DNA of 64,000 nucleotides from assembly GCA_017427885.1 (NCBI GenBank), contig JAFRRW010000008.1, forward strand, positions 1 to 64,000. Reading direction: 5' to 3'. Position numbers and translations under genes: made by a program. The notes under the pieces were generated by a model, which was not told the DNA's origin, searched no databases, and saw nothing but the letters and a program-made list of their open reading frames with translations. The DNA is from Bacteroidales bacterium (lineage in GTDB: Bacteria > Bacteroidota > Bacteroidia > Bacteroidales > UBA932). This document shows positions 53,999 through 57,037 of this stretch, piece after piece. Numbering within the stretch: the stretch's first letter is position 1; every line of letters starts with the position of its first letter.

Positions 53999-55384
53999 TT
54001 ATTCGTTACCGACCTTCGGCAGAAGGGCGAGGCCCTGGGCGATCTCTTCGTCGGAGGGGATGTAGTCGGTCATCGTTCCGTTGTTGTACTGCTCGTAGGC
54101 CTTGAGGTCGTAGTAGCCGGTTCCCGTGAGATTGAAGGCGATGACCTTGGCCTCTCCGCTTTCCTTGCATTTGAGGGCCTCGTCGATCGCCACGCGGATG
54201 GCGTGGCTGGATTCCGGGGCGGGAAGTATGCCCTCGCTGCGGGCGAAGAGCTCGGCCGCCTCGAAAACGGAGGTCTGCTCGACGGCACGGGCCGTGAAGT
54301 ACTTGTCCGCATATAGCTGTGCGAGGACGGGGCTGATGCCGTGGAAGCGGAGACCGCCGGCGTGGTTCGCCGAAGGGATGAACTGGCTGCCGAGGGTGTA
54401 CATCTTCGCCAGGGGGCAGATCATTCCGGTGTCGCAGAAATCGTACGCGAACTTTCCTCTCGTGAAACTCGGGCAGGAGGCGGGCTCGACGCCTATGATT
54501 TCATATTCGTTCTCGCCGCGCAGGATCTCTCCGAAGAACGGGGCTGCGAAACCGCCGAGATTTGAGCCTCCTCCGGCGCATCCGATGAGGATGTCCGGCT
54601 TGACGCCTATCTTGTCGAAGGCCGCCTTGGTCTCAAGGCCGATGATGGACTGGTGCAGGAGCACCTGGTTGAGCACCGAGCCGAGCACGTAACGGTATCC
54701 GGGAGTGGACACGGCCGTTTCCACGGCTTCCGAAATGGCGCAGCCGAGGGATCCGGTGGTTCCGGGATGCTCGGCGAGAATCTTCCTTCCGACTTGGGTG
54801 GTGTCGCTGGGAGAGGGGGTGACGGACGCCCCGTAAGTGCGCATAACCTCACGCCTGAAGGGTTTCTGCTCATAGGAGACCTTCACCATATACACCTTGC
54901 AGTCGAGGTCGTAGTAGGCGCAGGCCATGCTGAGGGCCGTTCCCCACTGTCCGGCTCCCGTCTCGGTGGTCACTCCCTTGAGCCCCTGGGCCTTTGCGTA
55001 ATAGGCCTGGGCGATGGCGGAATTGAGCTTGTGCGAGCCGGAGGTGTTGTTCCCTTCGAACTTGTAGTAGATTTTAGCCGGGGTGCCAAGAGCCTTCTCC
55101 AGGAAATATGCCCTCACGAGCGGGGAGGGGCGGTACATCTTGTAGAAGTCGATGACGCTCTCGGGAATGTCGAAGAACCTGGTATCGTTGTCCAGCTCCT
55201 GCCGGTTGAGCTCTTCGCAGAAGATGGGGTTCATCTCTTCGATGGTCAGGGGATGGCCGTCGGCCGGGCTGATGAGCGGAGCCGGCTTGTTCTTCATGTC
55301 CGCCCGGACGTTATACCATTGACGGGGAATCTCGTTCTCGTCCAGGTAAGTCTTGTAGGGGATTTGTTTGTCTGTCTGTGCCAT
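53999..55384 (-). CDS. trpB: Tryptophan synthase beta chain, TrpB2 type
   Basis: 461 residues from the ATG at 55384. Makes tryptophan from indole and serine with PLP. PLP Lys119 lies in GNNTSGSHKLNSA, the phosphate-binding loop is CAGGGSNLGGFAAP, and ETGAGQWGTALSMAC is typical. At about 460 residues with an N-terminal extension it belongs to the TrpB2 group, which can work without TrpA. No trpA gene is adjacent. Upstream lie a Trp-Trp leader peptide and attenuator, so it should be expressed when charged tRNA-Trp is low. The stop is 18 nt from the stop of convergent pepP. Confidence 0.92.
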   Translation of the reverse strand: MAQTDKQIPYKTYLDENEIPRQWYNVRADMKNKPAPLISPADGHPLTIEEMNPIFCEELNRQELDNDTRFFDIPESVIDFYKMYRPSPLVRAYFLEKALGTPAKIYYKFEGNNTSGSHKLNSAIAQAYYAKAQGLKGVTTETGAGQWGTALSMACAYYDLDCKVYMVKVSYEQKPFRREVMRTYGASVTPSPSDTTQVGRKILAEHPGTTGSLGCAISEAVETAVSTPGYRYVLGSVLNQVLLHQSIIGLETKAAFDKIGVKPDILIGCAGGGSNLGGFAAPFFGEILRGENEYEIIGVEPASCPSFTRGKFAYDFCDTGMICPLAKMYTLGSQFIPSANHAGGLRFHGISPVLAQLYADKYFTARAVEQTSVFEAAELFARSEGILPAPESSHAIRVAIDEALKCKESGEAKVIAFNLTGTGYYDLKAYEQYNNGTMTDYIPSDEEIAQGLALLPKVGNE

Positions 55385-55436: not shown

Positions 55437-55475
55437 AAAAAAGAACCGAGCCCCGTCGCAGTGCGGCAGGGCTCG
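55437..55475 (-). terminator. Attenuator terminator upstream of trpB
   Basis: On the minus strand CGAGCCCTGCCGCA pairs with TGCGACGGGGCTCG (one mismatch), followed by GTTCTTTTTT. It lies between the leader peptide and trpB, so it is a premature terminator. A competing pairing TCGTAA (55510-55515) with TTACGA (55473-55478) takes up the base of its 5' arm. Confidence 0.85.
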
Positions 55476-55476
55476 T

Positions 55477-55545
55477 AAAAATCTTGTATGGACATACGGC
55501 GCTTACCTCTTACGACTCTAGGAGTGTAAAGGGCGCCACCAGAAG
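55477..55545 (-). promoter_or_regulatory. trp attenuator: alternative RNA pairings
   Basis: GGCGC at the Trp-Trp-Arg codons (about 55533-55538) can pair with GCGCC (55498-55502) to form a pause or protector hairpin. TCGTAA (55510-55515) can pair with TTACGA (55473-55478), which overlaps the start of the terminator stem. The small hairpin GTATG-TC-CATAC lies between. The logic fits classical attenuation: translation through the Trp codons lets the terminator form, and stalling prevents it. Confidence 0.7.
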
Positions 55546-55568
55546 AATATGCTGTTCTTGCTTGCCAT
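55518..55568 (-). CDS. trpL: trp leader peptide with tandem Trp codons
   Basis: MASKNSIFFWWRPLHS, 16 residues, with two adjacent TGG codons at 55536-55541 and a TAG stop at 55518-55520. It lies between a promoter and a terminator upstream of trpB. Ribosome stalling at the Trp codons would free the downstream RNA to form the antiterminator. Two neighbouring Trp residues in so short a peptide are hard to explain otherwise. Confidence 0.88.
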   Translation of the reverse strand: MASKNSIFFWWRPLHS

Positions 55569-55575
55569 ACTTCTG

Positions 55576-55607
55576 CAATACTAGGCAAAAAAAATCTTAC
55601 TTGCAAA
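55576..55607 (-). promoter_or_regulatory. Promoter of the trpL-trpB unit
   Basis: On the minus strand TTTG (55604-55607), 20 bp, then TAGTATTG (55576-55583; one mismatch). The leader ATG lies seven bases beyond the -7 box, so the leader peptide may be read from an almost leaderless RNA. Confidence 0.65.
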
Positions 55608-55621
55608 TTTTTTGATAAAAA

Positions 55622-57037
55622 TCATCCTTCACCCTCGCTGTCGGGGGCTCCGCTGAAGGTCCCGGAGCGCTTCATTTTCCTTATGTACAACTTACCTCCG
55701 CTTATGGCAAAAAGGTTGTTTCCGGCATAGGCGATGGACGAAACCTTCCCTCCCGGGAGGGAGAGAATCGCCCTAACCCGGCCGTTCTGGTCACAGACCT
55801 GTATGCCGACGGAAGTGGCTGCATAGAGATATCCTCCGTCGTCGTAGAGGATCTGTCCCGCATCCGCATACAGGAAATAGAATTCCTCTCCGAAGGAGGG
55901 CTGGCCGTTTTCATCGAGCACATAGTCCCATACCCAGTTGCTCCCTTCCACCCTCCGGGCCATATGGCTGCCTCCTGGATAGACTGCTGAATACGGATCG
56001 GCCCCGACGGCTTTCCCTTTTATCCTGGTGCGGCTGCCATCCTCCGATACGGCCCAGGAATCCTTGCCCTCGCGAAGAAGGACGGCCTCTTCCGTATATG
56101 GATGGAGCATGGATTCGGGTGAGATCCCTTCTCCGACCAGTTTCCAGCCGCTTTCCGGTTCCATAAGGGACTGGATGGCCTGGTTCGAGGTCTTGGGTAG
56201 AGGTACCTCCTCAGGCCAGCCGCTCCACAGCCAGCGCATCGCATCCGGGAAGAGGATAAGCCCGTTCCGGCCGTCGTGTCCTCCCTCGTTCCATTGGTGC
56301 CGGACTTCGTAACCGGCGAATTCGAGGGCCGACAGCATTATCCTGTTGTATTCGAACCAGCTCCCGAACAACGGATTCCAGGTGTCGTCCATATTGTCCT
56401 GCAGGTAAACGCGGAGTCGGCGGGGTTCGCCCTTCCTTACCAGGGCGGGGAACTGGTCTCCTCCCCTGAATGAGACGAAGGTGCCGATAAAGCAGTACAC
56501 CCTGGAGAACAGGTCCGGCCGCTGCCAGGCGGCGTTGAAGGCGCAGATACCCCCGCTGCTGGTACCCATTATGGCACGGTCGGCCGCCTTCCCGGACAAC
56601 CTTATCCGCCTTCCGTCGGCCGTGGAGAGGTTCTCCACGCGAGGCAGGACTTCCGTTTCAATGAAACCGGCGAACCGTCCGTCCATCCTGTCGTATTCGT
56701 TGCTGCGGTTATAGCGCACCACCCTCTCATCCTTGTCGTAGATCCTGCCGGGGGTGACGATGACCCCTATCGTGACGGGGATGCTGCCCTCCGCGATCAG
56801 CGAGTCCAAGACTTCCGCCATTATTCCGGTCCCGCCGTCCATACATACGAGAAGGCAGGCGGGCGTCACTCCGTCATATGCGGTCGGGACGTAAATTTCG
56901 ACGATCCTTTCCGTTCCTGGATAGATGACCGAATTCTCCAGGGTGATGGAAATGACCTCCCCGGTAAACGCTTTCACGGGAAGGGAAAACAGAACCGAGA
57001 GAATTATCCCGGCAGCTGCAATGCGGAATCTGGACAT
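55622..57037 (-). CDS. Exported esterase with a C-terminal propeller-like region
   Basis: 471 residues with a signal peptide (MSRFRIAAAGIILSVLFSLPVKA). The N-terminal half is an enterochelin-esterase-type alpha/beta hydrolase (RIVEIYVPTAYDGVTPACLLVCMDGG; nucleophile Ser in IMGTSSGGICAFNAAW; His likely in EGGHDGRNG). The last 170 residues resemble a partial SMP-30-like propeller (ADAGQILYDDGGYLYAATSVGIQVCDQNGRVRAILSLPGGKVSSIAYAGNNLFAISGGKLYIRKMK). Feruloyl or acetyl esterase activity on plant glycans is a plausible guess. It lies 17 nt after lpxK on the same strand. Confidence 0.82.
   Translation of the reverse strand: MSRFRIAAAGIILSVLFSLPVKAFTGEVISITLENSVIYPGTERIVEIYVPTAYDGVTPACLLVCMDGGTGIMAEVLDSLIAEGSIPVTIGVIVTPGRIYDKDERVVRYNRSNEYDRMDGRFAGFIETEVLPRVENLSTADGRRIRLSGKAADRAIMGTSSGGICAFNAAWQRPDLFSRVYCFIGTFVSFRGGDQFPALVRKGEPRRLRVYLQDNMDDTWNPLFGSWFEYNRIMLSALEFAGYEVRHQWNEGGHDGRNGLILFPDAMRWLWSGWPEEVPLPKTSNQAIQSLMEPESGWKLVGEGISPESMLHPYTEEAVLLREGKDSWAVSEDGSRTRIKGKAVGADPYSAVYPGGSHMARRVEGSNWVWDYVLDENGQPSFGEEFYFLYADAGQILYDDGGYLYAATSVGIQVCDQNGRVRAILSLPGGKVSSIAYAGNNLFAISGGKLYIRKMKRSGTFSGAPDSEGEG

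Follow-up and report, generated by a model that had tools for sequence, protein, structure and literature searches.

In Escherichia coli, the antiterminator of the trp leader forms with the ascending arm of the terminator. The T-box reads tRNA charging; it binds tRNA directly and has no leader peptide. Classical trp attenuators are described in Actinobacteria, among them one predicted before trpB2A of Corynebacterium diphtheriae (PMC1262725), which gives a precedent for attenuation of a gene with the name trpB2. For Bacteroidota, Rfam holds the family Bacteroid-trp (RF01692), which is entered as a tryptophan peptide leader RNA and is tabulated in Weinberg et al. 2010 (PMC2864571). In the literature searched, which omits most subscription papers, RF01692 was found by accession only in that paper, as a table row in its available part, and the name Bacteroid-trp also occurs in two further papers. 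PMC3766115 counts the Trp leader RF00513, and Bacteroid-trp was not seen in its available part.

An earlier note on the DNA studied here had proposed a tryptophan attenuator before a lone trpB2 gene and had pointed out that attenuation is best known in Proteobacteria. In Bacteroidales, attenuation as such is no novelty, for RF01692 is already in Rfam and in the table of Weinberg et al. For an attenuated trpB2 in Bacteroidales, no report was found in the literature searched, from which most subscription papers are absent. Here we compare this leader with those of its relatives and with the known systems.

Organization of the leader region

The window, by which we mean the whole 64-kb stretch of DNA that was analysed, carries on its minus strand, in this order, a 16-codon ORF with adjacent UGG codons, a strong terminator with a U-rich tract, and trpB2. 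The features of the locus are as follows.

55604-55607, minus strand: -33 type promoter box TTTG, read from the sequence
55576-55583, minus strand: -7 type promoter box TAGTATTG, 20 nt past TTTG and 7 nt ahead of the leader ATG
55518-55568, minus strand: leader peptide ORF MASKNSIFFWWRPLHS, 16 codons, stop TAG at 55520-55518, with counterparts in relatives
55536-55541, minus strand: adjacent Trp codons UGGUGG (TGGTGG), read from the sequence and aligned to UGGuGG of RF01692
55498-55537, minus strand: protector hairpin (1:2), from predicted folds and covariation
55509-55518, minus strand: segment 2, GAGUCGUAAG (DNA GAGTCGTAAG), opening on the final base of the leader stop
55455-55460, minus strand: segment 3, UGCGAC, the last loop base and the top of the terminator descending arm
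55447-55475, minus strand: intrinsic terminator hairpin CGAGCCCTGCCGC-act-GCGACGGGGCTCG, from sequence, folds, relatives and stem covariation
55438-55446, minus strand: U-rich tract GTTCTTTTT, directly 3' of the terminator
53999-55384, minus strand: trpB2 (TrpB-like PLP-dependent enzyme; PRK12391, TIGR01415), the controlled gene, ATG at 55384 and stop at 53999

The order of promoter, 16-residue Trp-Trp leader, terminator and trpB2 given in the earlier note was confirmed by the sequence and the folds. TTTG (55607-55604) and TAGTATTG (55583-55576), separated by a gap of 20 nt, fit the Bacteroidota promoter type. The terminator hairpin was found in minimum-energy folds. In the protector hairpin, the leader codons UUUACACUC (55530-55522) pair with GAGUCGUAAG (55518-55509), and GGCGCC/GGUAAGCGCC lies beneath; in the alternative helix, segment 3 pairs with GUCGUA of segment 2. 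A generic promoter/terminator scan, which seeks sigma-70 boxes, missed this terminator and gave no promoter before the leader, and the only terminator that it reported is elsewhere.

The leader ATG stands only 7 nt past the -7 type box, with equal spacing in the nearest relative (L031). The sequence suggests that the leader mRNA may start almost at the leader ATG (55583-55568), which would mean near-leaderless translation.

Trp-Trp leaders before trpB2 of relatives

The sample from the bacterial family to which the window belongs consisted of 149 genomes, 86 of which had a trpB2-like match at E up to 1e-100. The upstream regions of 82 of these 86 genes were read; one without upstream sequence and three partial matches were left out. 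A leader was defined as an ATG ORF of at most 35 codons that contains Trp-Trp and lies within 330 nt upstream. Such a leader was found before 49 of the 82 genes; dinucleotide shuffles gave 0.68 on average, and the antisense strand gave 2 of 82. Both strands of the window hold three short Trp-Trp ORFs, and only this leader is followed within 130 nt by a terminator-like hairpin. On these two counts chance occurrence was rejected as an account of the leader, and a chance origin appears very unlikely. A terminator-like hairpin followed all 49 leaders (17 and 32 in two sets), as judged by a lenient finder with no shuffled control. In a mixed set of 110 loci (30 from the family and 80 from other contigs), 25 had a Trp-Trp leader. 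Of 23 non-redundant leaders, 13 had a strict TAnnNTTG box in the preceding 70 nt, where 300 shuffling runs gave a mean of 2.4 and a maximum of 7; two near-copies (L005 and L041) had been dropped for this test and for the duplex and residual-stem-energy tests described below.

The leader is missing from 33 of the 82 family genes, including 5 of the 8 in the same genus, and is present in the other 3. Four same-genus trpB2 genes (L012, L013, L022 and L030) fall in one clade, none with a Trp-Trp leader. A same-genus genome without a trpB2 match at E 1e-100 has a leader-model match (G072:C25:7946-8077, E 6.7e-6). Within the window's own genome, the leader model R1 found no second copy at E < 0.1; R1 was trained with the window's own leader included, and its 94-bit match there is by construction.

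Covariation and energetics of the two alternative helices

Alignment A1 contains 27 leaders: the trpB2 set of 25 contributed 14, and the 25 RF01692 leaders that have a terminator contributed 13. Its rows were picked by looking alignable, and its pair counts lean to the conserved form; the divergent trpB2 leaders are covered by both of two alignment-free tests and the RF01692 leaders by the second. In most rows, segment 1 consists of the codons for LQL. Pairing of segment 1 with segment 2 held in 88.2% of 203 cells and included 17 double changes, a result that none of 500 shuffles equalled; for segment 2 with segment 3 the figures were 95.1% of 162 cells and 13 double changes, and again no shuffle in 500 reached either value. 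The significance is overstated by the A1 shuffles, as related rows share history. Two pairs of the latter helix have a double change, which is not unusual by itself (229 of 500 shuffles). Its sixth position is A-U in 13 rows and G-C in 11 and is paired in 25 of 27, and none of 5000 shuffles was as high. The terminator stem also covaries in A1, with a double change in 8 of 11 pairs. To the question of shared history, the best answer is given by the divergent leaders L003, L009, L010 and L025, whose segments differ in sequence and are nevertheless complementary.

The alignment-free comparison used the duplex that segment 2 forms with the terminator apex and descending arm. In 23 trpB2 leaders this duplex had -14.0 kcal/mol with the leader's own terminator and -10.7 kcal/mol with swapped terminators, and 0 of 20000 permutations were as low; the test was repeated with other bounds. 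The RF01692 set showed a smaller preference for the own terminator (16 of 20000 permutations as low, z -3.25).

Segment 2 and the leader stop codon share bases in 26 of the 27 A1 rows, including that of the window; in L119 the stop is 4 nt beyond. In most aligned RF01692 members (L112, L117 and others), the pairing segment includes the leader stop codon, UAA or UGA, which changes in step with the terminator loop, from A-U to G-C. A comparison of the leader regions of relatives had been suggested in the earlier note. In these regions the Trp codons recur and the alternative pairings covary, and both results support its reading of Trp attenuation before trpB2.

The 2:3 helix of the window has only 6 pairs, one of which is G-U. 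When segment 3 is taken, the terminator stem of 23 leaders retains a median of -9.8 of -20.3 kcal/mol, a figure that depends on an automatic choice of helix, which in some rows, that of the window included, took one other than the conserved helix. In L009, segment 2 pairs entirely within the terminator loop. Since 2:3 leaves much of the lower stem, antitermination would have to be kinetic or partial. Because so much of the stem energy remains once segment 3 is paired, we propose that it is the nucleation of the hairpin that may be blocked.

Relationship to Bacteroid-trp

In a permissive Rfam scan, RF01692 matched the window leader at 23.7 bits (E 1.7) over all 131 positions, where the gathering cut-off is 49 bits. 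Two unrelated Rfam families had lower E values (0.74 and 1.1) in the same scan, and the RF01692 match by itself is at chance level. The argument for kinship comes from the comparison of the leaders. The alignment is full-length and collinear and puts UGGUGG, GUCGUAAG and AGUCGUAA of the window on the same consensus columns. Many leaders of the RF01692 and trpB2 sets encode the pattern WW(W) ... LQL ... S, have their stop codon inside GUCGURAG and are followed by a CUGUCG...CGACAG type terminator, and both the window leader and the RF01692 loci precede tryptophan synthesis genes. By these features, the window leader looks like a diverged relative of Bacteroid-trp.

RF01692 matches at E up to 0.001 occur in 26 of 295 genomes of the order, 15 of them over the cut-off. 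All 26 loci have a Trp-Trp leader and 25 have a terminator; in the remaining one, L122, the contig ends before the terminator. The first long ORF after these loci, assigned by eye with three of the gene starts checked against NCBIfam, is trpB1-like in 19 of 25, trpE in 5 and another gene in 1. RF01692 was not found at E 0.001 anywhere in the window's own genome. At gathering level, Rfam scans that covered 40 loci returned no leader match and only two tRNAs, and no trpB2 locus scanned reached the RF01692 cut-off.

Elsewhere in the family, the leader model was also found before other genes. Among 29 of its loci read, it precedes, by eye, trpB2 in 9 and a trpB1-like gene in 18; the other 2 gave no ORF.

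The trpB2 gene and tryptophan synthesis

The window gene scored 667 bits with NCBIfam PRK12391 (cut-off 366) and 572 bits with TIGR01415 (cut-off 519), and only 157 bits with the ordinary trpB model TIGR00263 (cut-off 392). It is therefore of the TrpB2 type. It is the one trpB2-like match in the assembly, which is 81% complete. Neither trpA nor IGPS had any match in this assembly, and the same searches were positive in 14 of 14 control genomes; at 81% completeness, missing trp genes are no proof of absence. The result agrees with the description of trpB2 in the earlier note as a lone gene outside any trp operon. In a genus sample of 11 genomes, trpA was found in none and trpB2 in 8. The bacterium, which has rumen relatives, seems unable to make tryptophan from scratch. 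Given that neither trpA nor IGPS was detected, TrpB2 probably serves in indole salvage. Conversion of indole to tryptophan is reported for Thermococcus kodakarensis, which owns both TrpB1 and TrpB2, as cited in the available part of PMC11085991.

Among family genomes, the leader stands on trpB2 in 44 of 68 trpA-negative and 5 of 14 trpA-positive ones, a difference that is not significant (Fisher p 0.07); trpA-positive means over the curated cut-off, as in 25 of 149 genomes, and any match at E 0.001 would give 35 of 149. The figures merely hint at a link between leaders on trpB2 and the loss of trpA. In three genomes of one genus (G011, G031 and G049) and in G092, the leader precedes a trpB1-like gene (loci L148, L147, L149 and L146, respectively), with no trpA match in these genomes in the search of the sample; their trpB1 is possibly used for indole salvage.

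T-box cores before trpB2 in Clostridia

The window TrpB2 is about 80% identical to its Clostridia relatives, in a comparison with the nearest 80 of at least 586 relatives, and mostly 50-57% identical to the proteins of its own family, one of which reaches 82%. In a tree of 110 TrpB2 proteins, a clade of 54 rows contains Bacillota as its named-phylum records. A T-box core, defined as a pattern match to GGUGGNACCGC, was found in 38 rows, all inside this clade, and no Trp-Trp leader was found in the clade. The other 16 rows showed neither device in the 450 nt scanned, and many Bacteroidota rows of the wider clade likewise have neither T-box core nor Trp-Trp leader. One locus with the core, L045, was checked with Rfam and gave RF00230 at 84.2 bits (E 4.9e-19), the cut-off being 93; it had been among the 40 loci scanned at gathering level. 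The tree was a quick, midpoint-rooted one.

Discussion

It is very probable that the leader is a ribosome-mediated transcription attenuator that fits trpB2 expression to charged tRNA-Trp. We propose that segment 1, the codons just past UGGUGG, and segment 3 would compete for segment 2. When tryptophan is plentiful, a ribosome at the leader stop would mask segment 2, the terminator would form and transcription would stop before trpB2. A terminating ribosome covers up to 12 nt beyond the stop, according to the available part of PMC4833913; since the leader stop codon overlaps segment 2, such a ribosome would cover this segment. When the leader is untranslated, 1:2 would form and termination would likewise follow. 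When tryptophan is scarce, the ribosome would stall on UGGUGG and mask segment 1, segment 2 would be free, and 2:3 would form. This helix would block the apex of the terminator, perhaps by preventing nucleation of the hairpin, and RNA polymerase would read into trpB2. TrpB2 would then make tryptophan from scavenged indole and serine.

The main competing explanation keeps the Trp attenuator and changes the antiterminator. In the earlier note, TCGTAA (55515-55510) was paired with TTACGA (55478-55473), that is, with the 5' base of the terminator, as in classical capture of the ascending arm. The pairing is present in the window as written: UCGUAA/UUACGA makes six Watson-Crick pairs here, and six with one G-U, by eye, in the nearest relative L031. 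It would break the terminator from its base, more directly than an apical pairing. However, it is not kept in relatives, since only 56.2% of its cells are paired in A1, equal to shuffles, and the leaders' own 5'-arm duplexes are not stronger than swapped ones (19444 of 20000 permutations as low, 17996 in a second test and 19992 in the RF01692 set). As a conserved antiterminator it is replaced in the relatives by the pairing of the leader-stop segment with the terminator loop and descending arm. We therefore consider it unlikely that the attenuator works by ascending-arm capture; the pairing may nonetheless act in this species and in L031.

The explanations that dispense with transcription attenuation by a ribosome are far less probable. 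Short leader ORFs have been proposed to boost the expression of the next gene, so the leader might act by coupled translation or reinitiation at trpB2. The reinitiation signal in Bacteroidetes, however, peaks at 11-14 bp from stop to start (PMC4833913), and in our locus 133 nt and a terminator separate the two, which makes this highly improbable. It is still less probable, to a degree that we would call negligible, that the terminator belongs to the esterase-like gene at 55622-57037 and that the Trp-Trp ORF is a chance one; that gene does share the strand of the leader, and 14 bases separate its end from the TTTG box downstream, but leaders, terminator and covariation recur in relatives, where only 0.68 leaders in 82 would be expected by chance. 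Control by a ligand-binding riboswitch, a T-box or a protein-bound attenuator is brought to mind by the frequent T-box core before the Clostridia relatives of this trpB2. No GGUGGNACCGC core stands before trpB2 in the window, so the T-box (RF00230) was rejected for this leader; nor did any Rfam family exceed its cut-off in the whole window, the most bits at the leader being those of Bacteroid-trp. Such control is likewise most improbable here.

The ribosome-mediated attenuator that we favour resembles RF01692 in its Trp-Trp leader, in UGGUGG within the 5' arm of the first hairpin, in GUCGURAG at the leader stop and in a terminator that is often of the CUGUCG...CGACAG type. Unlike the RF01692 loci of the order, which stand before trpB1 or trpE in 24 of 25 readable cases, it precedes trpB2; it also scores under the 49-bit cut-off, and the RF01692 model seems, by eye, to stop inside the first arm of the terminator. 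With the E. coli trp attenuator (trpL, RF00513), the leader shares tandem Trp codons, mutually exclusive helices and an intrinsic terminator. Unlike trpL, it conserves complementarity to the loop and descending arm of the terminator and controls a single gene in place of an operon. Ascending-arm capture, which belongs to the classical layout and is not essential to the kind, is possible in the window and is not conserved in relatives. If apical capture is right, it would be a testable departure from the textbook antiterminator. The Actinobacteria attenuators have leaders with double or triple UGG and terminators as well, and one stands before an operon opening with a trpB2-named gene; in contrast to our locus, trpB2A of C. 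diphtheriae has trpA alongside, and its sequence and phylum differ (PMC1262725).

In conclusion, this study gives a specific model, supported by covariation, for how ribosomes mediate attenuation in Bacteroidota. By this model, tRNA-Trp would govern what is probably indole salvage in bacteria where trpA was not detected. As a tentative generalization, about which we have some doubt, Bacteroidota might have a Trp attenuator class of their own, in which the antiterminator lies over the leader stop and capture of the apex blocks nucleation. Such a device might follow the function of the tryptophan synthase beta subunit, in trpB1 operons, at trpB1 without trpA and at lone trpB2, with the T-box in its place in the Clostridia trpB2 clade. 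The T-box RF00230 stands before trpB2 of Clostridia relatives that are about 80% identical to the gene of the window, and this offers a natural comparison between related enzymes whose genes stand behind a leader peptide in the one phylum and behind a T-box in the other.
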